Origin: Sedimentibacter sp. MB31-C6
GTDB taxonomy: Bacteria > Bacillota > Clostridia > Tissierellales > Sedimentibacteraceae
Reading direction: 5' to 3'
Length of the DNA: 64,000 nt
Assembly (NCBI RefSeq): GCF_035934735.1
Contig: NZ_CP142396.1
Span: forward strand, 1,364,001-1,428,000
Shown here: one piece after another, positions 265-8,015 of the stretch
Numbering within the stretch: position 1 is the first letter of the stretch
Layout: each line of letters opens with the position of its first letter
Position numbers and translations under genes: made by a program
Notes under the pieces: model-generated
The model's database searches: none
The model's input: only the letters and a program-made list of their open reading frames with translations
What the model was told of the DNA's origin: nothing

Positions 265-888
265 TTATTTATGCCTTTTTGTTAATTCTTCCTTTAAATC
301 GTCAATAGTTACACCTTTATCCACCATTAAAACTAATGAATGGTAAATTAAGTCACATAGCTCATAAATAACTTCATCTTTTCCTTCGTTTTTTGCTCCT
401 ATTATAACTTCACTAGTTTCCTCTCCAACTTTTTTAAGTATTTTATCTAAACCTTTATTAAATAAATAATTTGTATAAGATCCTTCTTTTGGATTATTTT
501 TTCTATTTATTATTTGACTATAAACTTTATTTAATACTGCTTGGTCTATAACCTCTTCTTCAAAAACTTTATTAAAAAAACATGAATATGCTCCTGTATG
601 ACAAGCATTACCTATCTGTTCTACCTTTATTAATATTGCATCTGCGTCACAATCATAATATAATCCCTTTAATATTTGTATATGTCCTGAAGTTTCTCCC
701 TTTCTCCATAAACTTTGTCTGCTACGAGAATAATAACATACTCTTTTTTCATTTAAGGTAATTTCTAATGATTCTTTATTCATGTAAGCAACCATTAAAA
801 CTTCATTTGTAACATAGTCCTGAGTAACTGCTACAACAAGACCTTTTTCGTCAAATTTTATTTCTTCTAATAATTTTTCTATATCCAT
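265..888 (-). CDS. hisIE: Bifunctional phosphoribosyl-AMP cyclohydrolase / phosphoribosyl-ATP pyrophosphatase
   Basis: Catalyses steps 2 and 3 of histidine synthesis: PR-ATP to PR-AMP, then ring opening. The N-terminal half (about residues 1-110) is the HisI domain with DCDADA and the metal-site segment [11 protein letters not shown]. The C-terminal half (about 125-207) is the HisE pyrophosphatase, with [17 protein letters not shown] and a second acidic helix (YELCDLIYH). The 207-residue length is normal for the fused form. It is the last gene of the his operon, separated from hisF by about 190 bp that carries palindromic repeats, so its expression may be partly uncoupled from the rest. Confidence 0.95.
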
Positions 889-936
889 TTTAACAACCTT
901 CTTTTCTTATATTCATTCTATTATTACCTATTTTTT

Positions 937-950
937 ACTGCGTCCCCTAC
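937..950. repeat. Right-end fragment of the palindromic repeat family
   Basis: The string CTGCGTCCCCTAC matches the right terminus of the complete element at 1031-1084. It lies in the same hisF-hisIE gap and looks like a remnant of a second copy. Confidence 0.5.
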
Positions 951-1030
951 GACTATTGTTGAATTTCACATTAGGTGTTATTTTATATTTCCAATGTACA
1001 TACCCTCTACATGAAAATCTACGTTCGCAA

Positions 1031-1084
1031 TGTAGGGTTTGCATTGTATGCAAACCGCGTGACGCATGCAATGCGTCCCCTACA
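1031..1084. repeat. Complete palindromic intergenic element overlapping the hisF stop codon
   Basis: A 54-bp unit with terminal inverted repeats TGTAGGG and CCCTACA encloses two perfect hairpins: GGTTTGCAT/ATGCAAACC and GACGCAT/ATGCGTC. Folded, it makes a three-way junction. It overlaps the hisF 3' end, so the hisF stop TAG (1080-1082) and the preceding ATG codon come from the element. Relatives lie at 4846-4914, 44249-44301 and 47017-47155. Confidence 0.8.
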
Positions 1085-1838
1085 TGCGTATTTCGATACC
1101 ATTGTCTTTTAAATATTTTTTTAAATCTTTAATATTAATTTCTCCAAAATGAAATACTGAAGCTGCTAAAATACCATCTACATTTGCATAATCAACTGCA
1201 TCTAAAAAATGCTCTATTTTACCCGCCCCTCCTGATGCTATTACAGGTACGCTTACAGCATCAGTTATACTTTTCAATAAATCTAAATCATATCCATTTT
1301 TCATCCCATCTTCATCGATGCTATTTACAACTATTTCTCCAGCTCCAAGATTTACACCTTCTATAGCCCATTGAATAGCATCTAATTCAGTTTTTATTCT
1401 TCCACCATTAATATATACACTCCATGAGTTAGAGTTGTTTTTTTTAGCATCTATGGACAATACAACACATTGATTGCCAAATCGTTCGGAAGCATCTTTT
1501 ATTAATTTTGGATTCTTTACTGCTGATGAATTAACTGATACTTTATCGGCACCACTTCTCAATATATATTTAAAATCATCTATAGTTGATACGCCTCCAC
1601 CAACAGAAAAAGGTATATTTATCTCATATGCAACACGTTTTACAAACTCAAGAGATGTTTTTCTTTCTTCATTAGATGCTGTTATATCATAAAAAACTAA
1701 TTCATCAGCACCAGATTCACTATAAAACTTACCTAATCTAGCTGGGTCATCAACATCCTGTATATCTTTAAATTTTTTTCCCTTTACAACCCGTCCGTTT
1801 CTAACATCCAAGCATGGTATAATTCTTGTTGTAATCAT
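1080..1838 (-). CDS. hisF: Imidazole glycerol phosphate synthase, cyclase subunit
   Basis: TIM-barrel lyase/cyclase that uses ammonia from HisH to turn PRFAR into imidazole glycerol phosphate and AICAR. The catalytic Asp pair is in [13 protein letters not shown] (Asp11) and VLSIDAK; the phosphate-binding GGG and SGGAG loops are present. Its 252 residues are the usual length. It starts 3 bp after the hisA stop, so the two are translationally linked. The last codon and stop are supplied by the palindromic repeat at 1031-1084, so the original C-terminus may have been altered by a residue or two. Confidence 0.97.
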
Positions 1839-1840
1839 AC

Positions 1841-2560
1841 TTACTCCTTATAGGAAGCATCTAATGCTTCTTTAAAATTTAATTTATTATCATATAAAGC
1901 TTTACCAATTATAGCTCCATATAAATTCATACTGCTTAATTTTTCAATATCTTTTATAGTGGTTACTCCTCCTGAAGCTATAATATTTATGGTTGTTTGT
2001 TTTATCAATTTTTCATATACTTTGAAATTAGGTCCAGAAAGCATACCATCTTTTGATATATCTGTATATACCAATGTCTTGATGCCTATATTTTCTAAAA
2101 AATTGCATATTTCTATTGAATCTACATTGCCTACTGTTTGCCATCCTCTTGTTGCTACTTTTCCATTATAAGCATCTATAGAAACAGCTATTTTTTCATT
2201 ATATTTTATAACAAGTTCTTTCAACAAATCTTGATTTTCAACAGCCATCGTACCTACTATAACTCGCTTAATACCTAAGTTTATCAAACTTTTAATTCTG
2301 TCTTCACTTCTGATACCACCACCGGTCTGCATAGGAATATTAATTGAATTTGCTATTTTTTCGATTGACTTTCTATTTTGAAAACCTTCATCTTTGGCAC
2401 CATCAAGGTCTACAATATGAAGATACTCTGCACCTATTGACTCCCATTTTTTTGCCATCTCAACAGGGTCATTCGAATATACATTTACTGTTTCAAATTT
2501 ACCTTGAGACAATCTAACACATTTATTATCTTTTATATCTATTGCTGGAAATAATATCAT
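1841..2560 (-). CDS. hisA: ProFAR isomerase
   Basis: Isomerises ProFAR to PRFAR, the fourth step of histidine synthesis. It is a (beta-alpha)8 barrel of 239 residues. Catalytic Asp8 is in [13 protein letters not shown] and the second acid is in [12 protein letters not shown]; the GGGIR and ASGGV phosphate loops are both present. It sits between hisH and hisF with gaps of 12 and 2 bp, the usual H-A-F order. Confidence 0.97.
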
Positions 2561-2572
2561 AACTAACCCTTC

Positions 2573-3175
2573 CTATTTAATAATTTCTTTATATGCTTTT
2601 AAAATATTCAAACCTGTTTCTCCACTTTTTTCTGGATGAAACTGAATACCATAAACATTTTCGTTTCGTACAATTGCAGGAACCCTTTTTTCATATTCTG
2701 AATATGCAAGTAATTCTGTGTTATTTGACACTGCATAATAAGAATGAACAAAATACACATATTCATTTTCATTTATATATTTTAATATAGGGTCATTTTT
2801 TTTGAACTTCAAGTTATTCCATCCCATATGAGGTATCTTCTGCTGAACATCTAAATATTCAATATTCCCTTTTATTAATCCTAATCCGTTATATTCTCCA
2901 TATTCATATCCTTTTTCATATAATAATTGCATTCCAAGACATATTCCTATTAAATATTTACCCTTTAAAACTTCTTCCTTAATTACTTCACTTAATCCTG
3001 AATCATTCAACAAGTTAATAGCATCTCTAAAAGCCCCTACTCCAGGAAGTATTAATGACTTAGCTTTTCTTATATCTTTTATATCACTACTTATTTTTAC
3101 ATCTAAATTTAATTTTTGGAATGCTCTTTCTACTGAAGCCAAATTACCCATTCCATAATCAATTATTACATGCAT
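2573..3175 (-). CDS. hisH: Imidazole glycerol phosphate synthase, glutaminase subunit
   Basis: Class I glutamine amidotransferase that feeds ammonia to HisF. The catalytic triad is visible: Cys in GICLGMQLL and His-Glu in GIQFHPEKSG; the oxyanion region LPGVGAF is present. Its 200 residues are typical. The ATG directly follows the hisB stop, with a GGGAG ribosome site inside the hisB 3' end, so translation is coupled to hisB. Confidence 0.97.
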   Translation of the reverse strand: MHVIIDYGMGNLASVERAFQKLNLDVKISSDIKDIRKAKSLILPGVGAFRDAINLLNDSGLSEVIKEEVLKGKYLIGICLGMQLLYEKGYEYGEYNGLGLIKGNIEYLDVQQKIPHMGWNNLKFKKNDPILKYINENEYVYFVHSYYAVSNNTELLAYSEYEKRVPAIVRNENVYGIQFHPEKSGETGLNILKAYKEIIK

Positions 3176-3754
3176 TTATAAAACTCCCTTCGTTGATTGC
3201 AAGTTGTCAGATGTTATATTACTAGATGATTTTATTGCTCTACCAAAACCTTTAAATATAGATTCTATTTTATGATGGTCATTTTCACCATATAATATTT
3301 CAATATGTAATGTAGATAATGAATTATTAACAAAACCTTTAAAAAACTCCTTAAAATCTTCTGTTGCAATTTCACCAAGTTTATTATTGTTAAAATCTAC
3401 ATTGTAAACAAGGTAAGGTCTACCACTAAAATCTATTAATACTCTAGCTAACGCTTCATCCATAGGCAACAATATTGAGCCATATCTTTCAATTCCTTTT
3501 TTATCTCCTAAAGCCTCCTTAAATACCTGCCCTAATGTAATTCCTATATCTTCTGATGTATGATGTGAATCTACATATAAATCGCCTTTGCATTTAACTT
3601 TTAAATCAAATCCTCCATGAAAACTAAATAAAGTTAACATATGATTCAAAATTCCTATTCCTGTATCTATATCAGATTTACCTGTACCATCTATATTCAA
3701 TTCTATACTAATATCTGTTTCAAATGTTTTACGATTTACTTTAGCTTTTCTCAT
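3176..3754 (-). CDS. hisB: Imidazoleglycerol-phosphate dehydratase
   Basis: Mn-dependent dehydratase that makes imidazole acetol phosphate. The metal-binding motifs DSHHTSEDIGI and GENDHHKIES are both intact. At 192 residues it is the monofunctional form: there is no histidinol-phosphatase domain as in enteric HisB, and no hisK/hisJ/hisN gene is in this operon, so that step must be encoded elsewhere. It precedes hisH with no gap. Confidence 0.97.
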   Translation of the reverse strand: MRKAKVNRKTFETDISIELNIDGTGKSDIDTGIGILNHMLTLFSFHGGFDLKVKCKGDLYVDSHHTSEDIGITLGQVFKEALGDKKGIERYGSILLPMDEALARVLIDFSGRPYLVYNVDFNNNKLGEIATEDFKEFFKGFVNNSLSTLHIEILYGENDHHKIESIFKGFGRAIKSSSNITSDNLQSTKGVL

Positions 3755-3775
3755 AAGTTATTCCTTTCGAGATAT

Positions 3776-4813
3776 TTAATTTGTTTCTTGCATAATTTTA
3801 TATATTTCTTTTAAAAGAATTTCATTTTCTTCTTTTGTTCCAACTGTTATTCTATAAAATACTTTTTCATTAAAAACAAATTTTCTAATTAATACTCCAC
3901 AATCCACTAGTTTTTCATATAAGTTATCCACAGTTTGTTCAATGAATATAAAATTAGATCCTGTAGGAAAAATAGTAAATCCTAACTTTTTAAGATTGTT
4001 GCATAATTCATATCTTAGTTTTTTAACTTCTTGAATATGCTCATTAACTTTGTCTATATTATCTAGTGCTTTATTAGCTGCATATTGTGACAATACATTA
4101 ATATTATAAGGAATTTTAACTTTCCATATATATTCTACCAAGTTTTCATTAGCTATCATTGCACCTACTCGTAATCCTGCTAAACCAAAGGCTTTTGAAA
4201 GAGTACGCATAACTATTAAATTTTCATATTTTTTTATTAAGTCAATAACAGTAATTTCAGAAAAGTCTGCATATGCTTCATCTAAAATAATTATTGAATT
4301 TTTAACGTTATTTAATAACTTTACTATTTCTTTTTTCGGAGTAACATATCCAGTTGGATTATTTGGATTGCAAAGTATAACAATTTTAGGTTTTATTTTG
4401 TTAGCTGTATTAATAAGTTTGTCTATATTTTGAGTAAAATCATATTCAGCTTTAATTCCAACATAATCAGCCCCACACAAATCACAATATGTTTGGTACA
4501 TACTAAATGATGGTACAAAACTCATTACCTTATCATTCTTTTCACAGTAAGCATTAATAACCATATTGATTAATTCACTTGAGCCATTACCCACAAGTAT
4601 ATTTTCCGCTTTACATCCATAATATATAGACATTTTTTCCCTTAAAATTTTTGAATCGCTATCTGGATAAAAATTTGGTTTGAAATCATCAAATATTAAT
4701 TTATCTTCTAATAAATAATTATTTCCTTCATTTGCATCAAGCTTTACTTTATAAGGTAGGTCATTTACATAATATGCTTGTAATTTTTGTACACTTGGTT
4801 TTAGTTTTATCAT
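3776..4813 (-). CDS. hisC: Histidinol-phosphate aminotransferase
   Basis: PLP-dependent aminotransferase (fold type I) that converts imidazole acetol phosphate to histidinol phosphate. The PLP lysine is in RTLSKAFGLAGLRVG and the cofactor-binding segment is NPNNPTGY. I start it at the ATG at 4811-4813, eight bases after an AAAGGG site, giving 345 residues. A longer in-frame reading from 4861 begins inside the repeat at 4846-4914 and has no ribosome site, so I reject it. It lies between hisD and hisB; the hisD-hisC gap holds the repeat. Confidence 0.95.
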   Translation of the reverse strand: MIKLKPSVQKLQAYYVNDLPYKVKLDANEGNNYLLEDKLIFDDFKPNFYPDSDSKILREKMSIYYGCKAENILVGNGSSELINMVINAYCEKNDKVMSFVPSFSMYQTYCDLCGADYVGIKAEYDFTQNIDKLINTANKIKPKIVILCNPNNPTGYVTPKKEIVKLLNNVKNSIIILDEAYADFSEITVIDLIKKYENLIVMRTLSKAFGLAGLRVGAMIANENLVEYIWKVKIPYNINVLSQYAANKALDNIDKVNEHIQEVKKLRYELCNNLKKLGFTIFPTGSNFIFIEQTVDNLYEKLVDCGVLIRKFVFNEKVFYRITVGTKEENEILLKEIYKIMQETN

Positions 4814-4845
4814 GGTTGTTTCCCTTTCTGTTGAGATGTTAATTC

Positions 4846-4914
4846 GGGTCGCGGTACGCATACAATGCGTCCCCTCGGTTACTTTTCGGGTCGCGATACG
4901 CTGCGTCCCCTACG
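4846..4914. repeat. Degenerate tandem half-copies of the palindromic repeat, hisD-hisC gap
   Basis: Two units, each starting CGGGTCGCG(G/A)TACGC and ending GCGTCCCCT, lie at about 4845-4875 and 4887-4913. They match the right half of the family element. The second copy ends two bases from the hisD stop codon. Their GC content is far above the surrounding DNA. Confidence 0.7.
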
Positions 4915-4915
4915 T

Positions 4916-6196
4916 TTACGTTCTTATTTTTATGGCGTTTGCATGAGCTGTTAATCCTTCATTTTCTGCAAATCTAATTATATCTTCTTTGTACTCCTGT
5001 AAAGAATCTTTACTGTAATAAATTAGAGATGTTTTTTTAATAAAATCATCTACACTTAAAGCTGATGAAAATTTAGATGTTGAACTTGTTGGTAAAGTAT
5101 GATTAGGTCCAGCAAAATAATCACCTACTGGCTCTGGACTATATTCTCCTAAAAATATTGCTCCTGCATTCTTTATATTTTTATAAATATAAAAACAATT
5201 TACTGTAAGCAACTCTAAGTGTTCAGGTGCTATTTCATTTGCTAAATCAATACATTCTTTTATACTATCAGCTAAAATTATTGCTCCATTATTTTGTAAT
5301 GACTTTTTAATTATTTCACTACGTTCTAATATATTAACTTGATTTTTAAGTTCATTTTTAACTTTTTTAATTAATGAAATTGAGTCTGTTATTAGTATAG
5401 ATGCTGCCATCTCATCATGCTCTGCCTGAGAAATCATATCAGCAGCTATATAAGCAGGATTAGCCATCTCATCAGCAATTATAAGAATTTCACTTGGACC
5501 AGCTATCATATCTATACCTACAAAACCAGATACCCTTCTTTTTGCAGCAGCTACAAATATATTACCAGGACCTGTGATTTTATTTACTTTAGGAATAGAT
5601 TCTGTTCCATAAGCTAATGCTGCTATTCCTTGAGCCCCACCAACCTTAAAAATTCTATCTACACCTGCTATAGAAGCAGCTACAAGTATTGAATCTTTTA
5701 TTTTTCCGTTTTCTTGAGGAGGAGTAATCATAATAATTTCTTTTACTCCGGCTATTTTTGCTGGAATTGCATTCATTAATACAGTAGATGGATAGGAAGC
5801 CTTACCTCCTGGTACATAAATACCTGCCTTTTCAATAGGATTTATTATTTGACCTAGAATTAAATCTTTTCCCTCTGGTTTGTATTTATATCCTTTTCTC
5901 ATTTGTTTTTTATGATAATCTTCTATATTATCTTTTGATTTAATTAATGTATCTAATAAATCTTTATTAATTGTATTATAAGCCTCCTCTATTTCTTCTA
6001 TAGAAACCTCTAAATTATCCAATGACACTTTATCAAACTCATTAGTATACCTTTTTATAGCAGAATCTTTATTTTTCCTTACATCTTCTAAAATATTATC
6101 AACAATATCATATACGTCATTAAAATCCTGCGAATTCCTACTTTGAAGCTCATTTAAATAGTTTAGCTTGTCTTTTTCCTTAATTATTCTAATCAT
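4916..6196 (-). CDS. hisD: Histidinol dehydrogenase
   Basis: Zn-dependent NAD enzyme that oxidises histidinol to histidine in two steps. Signature segments are [27 protein letters not shown] and QAEHDE, with catalytic EHLE further on (APEHLEL). I choose the ATG at 6194-6196, nine bases after AGGAGG (6206-6211); an earlier in-frame ATG at 6205 touches that ribosome site with no spacing. This gives 426 residues and an 8-bp overlap with hisG, indicating coupling. Confidence 0.96.
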
Positions 6197-6821
6197 TTTT
6201 TTCATCCTCCTTTCTAATTAACTCAATTACTTCTTTTATTTCATTTCTCTTAAATTTATAACTAATTTTATTTGATATCATCATTCCACTTATCTCATAC
6301 ATATCTTCAAAAACTTCTAAACCATTAGCTTTTAAAGTATTGCCAGTTTCAACTATATCTACTATTACATCAGATAGTCCAAGAATTGGAGCAAGCTCTA
6401 TAGAGCCATTTAATTTAATAATTTTTATCTTCTGTCCTTTGCTTTTAAAGTACCTTTTAGCTGTTTCAGGAAATTTAGTAGCTACTTTTAAAATTGTATC
6501 ATCAGTTAATATTTTTTTTCCTTTAATTCCTGCAACAGACAACTTACATTTACCTATATTCATTTTATAAAGCTCATATATATCTGATTCCTTTTCCATA
6601 ACCATGTCTTTACCAGCAATTCCTAAATCAGCAATACCATTTTCAACATAGGTTATTACGTCTGAGTTTTTCAAAAGCATGAACTTAATATTTCTTTCGT
6701 TATCTTTAAAAATTAATTTTCTTGATTTTTCATCTATCGCATTACCAATACCAGTACTTTTTAACATTTTAATCGTTTGTGTTCCTAGCCTTCCCTTAGG
6801 AATTGCTACTGTTAAGCTCAT
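6189..6821 (-). CDS. hisG: ATP phosphoribosyltransferase catalytic subunit, short form
   Basis: First committed step: ATP plus PRPP to PR-ATP. At 210 residues this is the short HisG, which lacks the C-terminal regulatory domain and needs HisZ. Features include the N-terminal AIPKGRLG, DLGIAGKDMV and the PRPP loop DIVETGNTLKANGL. It begins one base into the hisZ stop and overlaps hisD, so the first three genes are tightly coupled. Feedback control by histidine should act through the HisG-HisZ complex, from family knowledge. Confidence 0.97.
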   Translation of the reverse strand: MSLTVAIPKGRLGTQTIKMLKSTGIGNAIDEKSRKLIFKDNERNIKFMLLKNSDVITYVENGIADLGIAGKDMVMEKESDIYELYKMNIGKCKLSVAGIKGKKILTDDTILKVATKFPETAKRYFKSKGQKIKIIKLNGSIELAPILGLSDVIVDIVETGNTLKANGLEVFEDMYEISGMMISNKISYKFKRNEIKEVIELIRKEDEKND

Positions 6822-7762
6822 TAATTAACCTCCTTATAAAGAACTTTTATTAATTCATCTAGTTCAACTGAAAATCCTATTCCAGGAATTTTATAACCAT
6901 ATTGTTCTGTAAAGGAATCATAACGACCACCTTTTATAATTTCTGTATTAGAACCTTTTATATATCCTCTGAAAATAATACCGTCATAGTAGCTTAGTTC
7001 TGAAACCATGGAAAGGTCATATGTAATATTTTTTGTAGTTATACTTTTATCTATGTTGTACAACTCATTAATTCCATCCTTCATTAAATCATTCATATAT
7101 AAACCATTAAGTTGCTCATTTATTTCATCAAAGTGTCCTTCTAAATCAAATATATTTACAAGAGTACTCATAGCCTCTTTATATGGTAATTTGGACAAAT
7201 ATTCCTTTAATCCTTGTTTATTTTTAGAATGCAATAAATTCAAAACATTATAATAATCTTCATTTATAAAAGAACATCCTTGCATTAATCCCTTTAAAAA
7301 TTTACTGTTGCCTATTTCAAATAAATAATCATTACTATAATTTTTCATAATTTTTATTGCAGTACCTAATACATATTCATCAGTATTTTTATTTTTTTCT
7401 CCAATTAATTCAACTCCTATTTCTCTATTTTCCTTTATCCCAATTCCATTATACTTATATGTTTTTCCATAGTAAAAAATCTTTAGTTTAGTCCCTATAT
7501 CCCATCTAGGAATATATTTATTAATTATATTTGTAGTAATATCAGGAGATAATATAAGTATTTCACCCGTATTATCAAGCAACTTTACAGTAGCTTTTTT
7601 ATCTATTCTTGAATTTATATTTGTAAATTCATCATATTCTTCAAAGATAAAAGGCTCGACATTCATATATTCTTCTTTATAAAGAAAATCTTCTATTTCT
7701 CTTCTTAAAATGTACATTTTTTGATAAAAATTAATTTCATCTTTAATATTTAAAAAATTCAT
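6821..7762 (-). CDS. hisZ: ATP phosphoribosyltransferase regulatory subunit
   Basis: Class II histidyl-tRNA-synthetase-like protein that activates short HisG and senses histidine. The C-terminal IIKGGRYDSFTEQYG and GIGFSVELDEL match the synthetase-like motif 3 region. I use the ATG at 7760-7762, eight bases after GGAGGAG; a TTG at 7777 overlaps that ribosome site and is unlikely. The product is 313 residues. It is the first structural gene of the operon, immediately behind the leader terminator at 7785-7812. Confidence 0.93.
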   Translation of the reverse strand: MNFLNIKDEINFYQKMYILRREIEDFLYKEEYMNVEPFIFEEYDEFTNINSRIDKKATVKLLDNTGEILILSPDITTNIINKYIPRWDIGTKLKIFYYGKTYKYNGIGIKENREIGVELIGEKNKNTDEYVLGTAIKIMKNYSNDYLFEIGNSKFLKGLMQGCSFINEDYYNVLNLLHSKNKQGLKEYLSKLPYKEAMSTLVNIFDLEGHFDEINEQLNGLYMNDLMKDGINELYNIDKSITTKNITYDLSMVSELSYYDGIIFRGYIKGSNTEIIKGGRYDSFTEQYGYKIPGIGFSVELDELIKVLYKEVN

Positions 7763-7784: not shown

Positions 7785-7812
7785 AAAAAACCATCTGACT
7801 TGTGTCAGATGG
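7785..7812 (-). terminator. his operon attenuator terminator
   Basis: On the minus strand, CCATCTGAC-ACAA-GTCAGATGG (7791-7812) forms a perfect 9-bp hairpin with a 4-base loop, followed by six T (7785-7790). It stands between the his leader peptide and hisZ, 23 bp before the hisZ ATG. That is the place and shape of an attenuator, not of an end-of-operon terminator. Confidence 0.9.
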
Positions 7813-7833
7813 CAATAATTACTAAATATTCAC

Positions 7834-7882
7834 CACAGATACAAGTCTTTAAAATTAACGACTAATAGAGCTTGTATCTGTG
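7834..7882 (-). promoter_or_regulatory. his leader regulatory stem
   Basis: CACAGATACAAG (7871-7882, read on the minus strand) and CTTGTATCTGTG (7834-7845) pair perfectly over 12 bp around a 25-base loop. The 3' arm and its neighbouring bases (GACTTGT) are also complementary to ACAAGTC within the terminator hairpin, so two exclusive folds exist. Which fold a stalled ribosome favours I could not settle by eye. Confidence 0.75.
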
Positions 7883-7902
7883 AGCTAAATTTTAATTTAA
7901 GA

Positions 7903-7962
7903 TCACTTACAAACCCTATATCTATGATGATGATGCAATTGTACTAATATTAATTTTTCCAT
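7903..7962 (-). CDS. hisL: His operon leader peptide (MEKLILVQLHHHHRYRVCK)
   Basis: A 19-codon reading frame starts with ATG at 7960-7962, five bases after a GAGGTG ribosome site (7968-7973), and ends with TGA at 7903-7905. Codons 10-13 are four consecutive His codons, all CAT. It lies 20 bases downstream of a perfect promoter and upstream of a paired stem and a terminator, then hisZ. This is the layout of ribosome-stalling attenuation as in enteric his operons. The peptide sequence itself is presumably without other function. Confidence 0.92.
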   Translation of the reverse strand: MEKLILVQLHHHHRYRVCK

Positions 7963-7986
7963 TTTCGCACCTCGTGAATTTATTAG

Positions 7987-8015
7987 ATTATACTCCTAAG
8001 TATTTTAGAAGTCAA
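7987..8015 (-). promoter_or_regulatory. his operon promoter
   Basis: On the minus strand TTGACT (8010-8015), 17-bp spacer, TATAAT (7987-7992). Expected start of transcription is near 7980, giving a leader of about 220 bases that carries hisL, the 12-bp stem and the terminator. Confidence 0.88.

Follow-up and report, generated by a model that had tools for sequence, protein, structure and literature searches.

A predicted His-codon leader attenuator ahead of the Sedimentibacter his operon and a probable family of codon-swapped relatives that includes the Rfam trpB motif

By what device is the histidine operon of Sedimentibacter sp. MB31-C6 controlled? In the 64,000-nucleotide stretch of DNA analyzed here (the window; all features described below lie on its minus strand), nine ORFs whose translations read as hisZ-G-D-C-B-H-A-F-IE occupy positions 265-7762: the first, hisZ (6821-7762), has TIGR00443 as its best family (175 bits, below the curated cut-off), and the genes after it were named by eye from their translations. 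The original prediction placed a ribosome-stalling histidine attenuator at 8015-7785, just ahead of hisZ, and remarked that T-boxes are the usual means of controlling His genes in Firmicutes. That remark stands only in part: T-box control of such genes does exist, but repression by HisR is reported to be the commoner device in Firmicutes (PMC9413887). HisR itself (TrpR family, PF01371) was considered as the regulator and rejected, as the genome has no match above the cut-off and a weak match below it is a sigma-factor-like protein.

The promoter comprises a -35 box TTGACT (8010-8015) and a -10 box TATAAT (7987-7992) with a 17-nt spacer between them. It had been called perfect, but the -35 box has one mismatch to TTGACA; a TTGACA-17-TATAAT-like promoter is kept in the Sedimentibacter leaders. 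Transcription would start near 7980. A Shine-Dalgarno sequence, GAGGTG (7968-7973), also present in relatives, precedes a leader peptide ORF of 19 codons, MEKLILVQLHHHHRYRVCK (7903-7962; ATG at 7962, TGA at 7905-7903), which has homologous leaders in relatives and carries four consecutive regulatory His codons, all CAT (7924-7935). Four segments can then be delineated: a, running from the third His codon to the Arg codons (7916-7929); b, GGGTTTGTAA, at the 3' end of the leader ORF (7907-7916); c, CACAGATACAAGCTC (7868-7882); and d, GACTTGTATCTGTGGTG (7831-7847). Segments c and d contain a perfect 12-bp hairpin, in which CACAGATACAAG (7882-7871) pairs with CTTGTATCTGTG (7845-7834). An intrinsic terminator (7785-7813) follows, its hairpin GCCATCTGAC-ACAA-GTCAGATGGT at 7813-7790 and its U-run extending to 7785, 22 nt before the hisZ ATG at 7762. 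The leader frame with its own ribosome site and four His codons, the mismatch-free stem and the terminator just ahead of hisZ were thus all found where the original prediction had placed them. The alternative pairing that it noted, GACTTGT (7847-7841) with ACAAGTC (7803-7797), is likewise present as complementarity, and is part of the pairing of d with the terminator tip: the tip, GACACAAGTC (7797-7806), spans the end of the 5' arm, the loop and the start of the 3' arm, and with d (7847-7838) it would constitute the antiterminator, nine of whose ten pairs can form in the window. Hence d can be claimed by a, by c or by the terminator tip, c can pair with b or d, and a pairs with d when the ribosome is absent, giving five possible pairings: a:d, b:c, c:d, d with the terminator tip (d:T5), and the terminator itself (T5:T3).

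This anatomy suggests how the switch might operate. In the enteric his attenuator, a stalled ribosome leads to pairings B:C and D:E, and a ribosome at the stop codon leads to C:D and the terminator (E:F). Here, with an assumed ribosome footprint, a shortage of histidyl-tRNA would halt the ribosome at the first His codons, where it would mask a but not b; free b would take c, leaving d unpaired to capture the apical part and loop of the emerging terminator, and the polymerase would continue into hisZ. With sufficient histidine, the ribosome would arrive at the UGA and mask b, the 12-bp c:d helix would form, and the terminator tip, free of its competitor, would allow transcription to end. If the leader were not translated at all, a:d together with b:c would also sequester d and give basal termination, the least certain of these steps. 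The original prediction could not see how stalling would act, with the first stem lying past the leader stop codon: the location of segment b inside the ORF and the d:tip pairing supply the answer, although the stalling itself, its timing and the read-through are what we infer. The further suggestion of a mechanism unlike the enteric one is not upheld. Topology and logic parallel those of the enteric his attenuator (RF00514) and the sequences differ: here the tip and loop of the terminator are what the antiterminator captures, three partners compete for d, and b forms part of the leader ORF. The RF00514 model finds no match at its gathering score, nor any at the locus up to E = 10; among other Rfam families, Ref84, STnc410 and mir-287 match the locus weakly, at chance level, and were dismissed.

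The element is present as a single copy in the genome, and its leader RNA folds with z = -5.9 relative to shuffled sequences; because of this and of its recurrence ahead of hisZ in relatives and across the order, it is not a product of chance. Retrieval by hisZ homology yielded the leader upstream of hisZ in 14 loci, labelled as Sedimentibacter or as Tissierellia, Firmicutes or Clostridiales metagenome bins. A covariance model built from these hisZ leaders has matches in 37 of the 249 genomes scanned in the order, representing 14 of 92 genera; a broader model extends this to 46 genomes of the order, where its weakest matches are spurious, and also has matches in other families of the class. 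Among the His-type relatives the His run (HHH or HHHH) is invariant, while the remaining peptide drifts and even changes frame, so that the His run is the conserved portion of the leader peptide. Its loss in relatives, which would have refuted the original prediction, is thus not seen. The peptide tail, ...RYRVCK, is kept chiefly at the RNA level: in one relative (L008) a 1-nt deletion moves it into another frame, and segment b is elsewhere read as SL-stop or VCN-stop, or is placed beyond the stop codon. A predicted short ORF with a Shine-Dalgarno sequence and its own promoter thus stands ahead of the operon in the window and in relatives, and the pathway-matched codon run is kept in the latter, as expected of an attenuator. 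In some Sedimentibacter relatives (L003, L004, L006, L008), repeat units of the form CCCTAACCCCATTTTT..CGACCG..AGAAAAATGGTTGGTAGGTCAAACGCAACGA, in up to about three copies, lie between the attenuator and hisZ; the window has none.

It is the same conserved, translated-looking His-codon ORF that speaks against a divergent T-box sensing uncharged tRNA-His directly, since it stands in the place that such a T-box would occupy. T-boxes control His genes in other Firmicutes (PMC9413887), and this genome has 23 matches to the T-box model (RF00230), but all of these lie outside the window, and none appears at the locus even at E values up to 10; the lack of a T-box noted in the original prediction is borne out, and we regard direct sensing of this kind as barely conceivable.

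If the proposed pairings are functional alternatives, their partners should change together. Across the 14 close relatives the terminator has five pairs with compensatory changes and is paired in 100% of cells; the d:tip helix has one compensatory pair, A-U to G-C, in four of the 14 sequences; and the 14 pairs of a:d are paired in 97% of cells. The other helix pairs are mostly invariant because d has to fit three partners. A swap test designed to avoid reliance on the alignment of pairs was applied to 52 elements at less than 80% identity, drawn from 168, comparing the duplex energy of each element's own segments with that of segments exchanged from elements of less than 70% identity; the borders of the segments were taken from the covariance-model alignment, in which c:d and the terminator are represented but b:c, d:tip and a:d are not. 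An element's own pair was better in 52/52 cases for T5:T3, 51/52 for c:d, 52/52 for b:c, 51/52 for d:T5 and 49/52 for a:d (P about 1e-10 for each helix), and six control segment pairings had no effect. At the level of sequence, all five helices thus coevolve, and pair counts and swap tests alike point to mutually exclusive terminator and antiterminator structures. These results also bear on the proposal that translation of the leader governs hisZ through reinitiation or coupling, with the terminator incidental. The leader ORF is indeed located upstream of hisZ, but the terminator covaries, its tip coevolves with d, and the gap separating the leader stop from hisZ measures about 140 nt here, rising above 200 nt in several relatives that have repeats inserted there; together these points render the proposal extremely unlikely. 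Ribosome-mediated transcription attenuation, which would tie expression of the his operon to the supply of charged tRNA-His, fits the conserved His codons and competing helices far better than any other reading, and we hold it with high confidence.

Folding of the RNA with ribosome masks, again using an assumed footprint, is consistent with this reading. When the nascent window RNA is extended to 3 nt into the terminator 3' arm, the expected number of d:T pairs is 14.2, 13.3, 7.8 and 0.1 with the ribosome stalled at His1, His2, His3 and His4, respectively, 0.0 with the ribosome at the stop codon and 13.8 without a ribosome; in the model, a stall at the fourth His codon would accordingly not antiterminate. 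The terminator takes over after 6 nt of its 3' arm have been synthesized. Without a ribosome, a:d holds d up to the loop, but once 3-4 nt of the 3' arm are made the equilibrium favours d:T; basal termination would accordingly rest on a:d forming first. In 50 representatives folded in the nascent state, d:T pairing was greater on stalling than at the stop codon in 31 and lower in 6 (P = 7e-7). With full-length RNA at equilibrium, the terminator wins in every ribosome state of the elements tested, with essentially no switching, and the switch must therefore be kinetic. Applied to the E. coli his leader, the same calculation likewise predicts termination at equilibrium whatever the ribosome state and fails to tell the stop from the stall; as this proven attenuator is not cleanly reproduced, we treat masked folding as supportive but weak, and not as decisive.

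Some of the class-wide matches precede genes other than those of histidine metabolism, and their leaders contain runs of Tyr, Phe or Leu codons. An RNA model that spans b to the terminator, and is largely codon-blind in that it mostly excludes the codon region, gathered about 180 relatives, whose leaders carry runs of His, Phe/Tyr, Trp or Leu codons; when it was run on two families with a per-genome cut-off of E <= 0.001, it hit 45 genomes out of 71 in one and 54 out of 146 in the other. Antisense matches, which arise from the near-palindromic hairpins, were discarded, as were matches representing spurious terminators or lying antisense or inside genes (L051, L080, L089, L091, L098-L101, L119), and the weak matches L081-L084 were left out of the leader reading. 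The leader ORF was picked in 140 loci by start codon, Shine-Dalgarno sequence and position only, while downstream genes were grouped by BLAST and named by NCBIfam: ATG is the start codon in every one of the 136 leaders whose downstream gene was classified, and a Shine-Dalgarno sequence of 4 nt or more precedes 133 of them. The codon run agrees with the class of the downstream gene in 96 of 98 unique leaders, compared with a mean of 50.8 and a maximum of 67 in 20,000 permutations; as the expected transporter classes were assigned after the leaders were seen, the permutation shows a tight association of codon and gene, and the match to substrate is independent only for hisZ, hisS and an aromatic operon of Ilyobacter.

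His runs occur ahead of hisZ, hisS and a basic-amino-acid-type ABC binding protein; Phe/Tyr runs precede one group of sodium-dependent symporters, BrnQ-like carriers and TrpX-type ABC transporters; and Leu runs precede a second sodium-symporter group. The Phe/Tyr-linked symporter group presumably resembles Tyt1. The histidyl-tRNA synthetase gene hisS is preceded by the same His leader in several families (L047, L050, L085, L097, L176, L252, L255). Tyr/Phe leaders are found at BrnQ-like carriers that are annotated as branched-chain transporters by TIGR00796 (L144, L145, L147-L152, L159, L169, L177, L192, L197, L198, L205, L210, L216, L218-L220, L235), and TrpX-type transporters have mostly Phe/Tyr rather than Trp codons in their leaders. 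Whatever their annotation, the BrnQ-like and TrpX-type transporters preceded by Phe/Tyr leaders probably carry aromatic amino acids; the codon run might thus also serve to predict transporter substrates.

Members extend beyond the Clostridia. The TrpX-type operons of Enterococcus gallinarum and Streptococcus suis have leaders ending in IAYFSYFR and HTYFYGYFR, respectively; in Ilyobacter, a leader ending in NWYFYYYFRN stands before DAHP-synthase-like and prephenate-dehydrogenase-like genes (named by eye), and in Cetobacterium one ending in VLFWWWP stands before a sodium symporter. Two existing Rfam families are encountered here. The Phe/Tyr leader attenuator of the E. gallinarum TrpX-type ABC operon (L270:2699-2887) coincides with RF02863, 'Enterococcus sRNA 2410', and this 'sRNA' may simply be the terminated leader. 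A Fusobacterium vincentii element with the Trp-codon leader MKQILTTTMRYWQNWHR, from a chromosome-sized record in a plasmid collection, belongs to RF04312, the trpB motif (68.5 bits, above the gathering score).

The published trpB motif has, like the window element, a P1 hairpin (c-d), a spacer and a terminator, with the antiterminator in the right shoulder of P1; it differs in being described without a leader peptide or segment b. Its authors proposed a riboswitch, calling the motif a strong candidate, while leaving a protein-binding motif or a classic attenuator possible (PMC11109978). The window element too could be read as a metabolite-binding riboswitch, with the c-d hairpin as aptamer and the terminator as expression platform: RF04312 aligns to it over the full length (E = 5e-4), albeit at 38.3 bits, short of the gathering score of 59, so that it is not a member by score. 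The relatives, however, have at a fixed place a Shine-Dalgarno-preceded ORF whose codon runs fit the downstream gene, one RNA serves four amino-acid classes, and the competing helices account for the conserved bases; these features make a riboswitch very unlikely. The scan of Clostridia with RF04312 yielded nothing above threshold (the best relative reaches 52.1 bits), and the sub-threshold matches mostly have codon-run leaders. A codon-swapped attenuator probably explains the trpB motif, which is listed as an unsolved riboswitch candidate. We consider it likely, more broadly, that a single a-b-c-d-terminator switch, retargeted by exchange of the codon run in its leader, serves His, Tyr/Phe, Trp and Leu in members of the Clostridia, Lactobacillales and Fusobacteriota, with RF04312 and RF02863 as members that are neither riboswitch nor free-standing sRNA; our confidence goes no higher because the F. 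vincentii element is the one above-threshold RF04312 member that was read.

His-type members have precedents. A hisZ leader attenuator was predicted in Clostridioides difficile and relatives (a 2010 study cited in PMC4833913; PMC9413887, 2022), and as outlined in the relevant passages it likewise places a His-codon leader ahead of hisZ, together with an attenuator hairpin, a terminator and a proposed antiterminator; model matches in one clostridial family (f75) have the same architecture. Those passages treat other lineages, without Sedimentibacter, and do not join the element to Tyr/Phe/Trp/Leu leaders or RF04312. The His leader peptides of Bacillus hisZ/hisS* (PMC2965389) exemplify leader-peptide attenuation in Gram-positives, and ilvB-II, a uORF attenuator (PMC10272879), is an earlier case in which an RNA motif turned out to be a leader peptide; compared by description only, both are alike in kind. 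A search of the main texts of open-access papers found no publication that links these leaders to one another across amino acids or to RF04312. What was already known is thus the prediction of His-type members in C. difficile and Bacillus, and the codon-swapped family and the RF04312 link appear in none of the texts searched. A group of orphan RNAs that counts more than 900 published representatives and has been proposed as a riboswitch candidate would thereby gain a testable mechanism, and one RNA chassis re-targeted by codon choice would be the leader-peptide counterpart, in the same phylum, of anticodon reading by T-boxes.

Three loci merit separate mention. The F. vincentii RF04312 element (L276:1429-1613) is followed by no same-strand ORF of more than 60 aa in about 1,500 nt after its terminator, and is apparently an orphan attenuator. 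At one locus with a Phe-type leader, the Rfam pan motif (RF01749; L073:508-599) is also present and is unrelated to the leader. Finally, upstream of a TrpX-type gene of Ilyobacter lie an ORF, MMAKFTWWWQNKIDQYNKSQVNQVLSKSA, and a pair of hairpins not recognized by the model (L267:1610-1894), which possibly represent an unrelated Trp attenuator.
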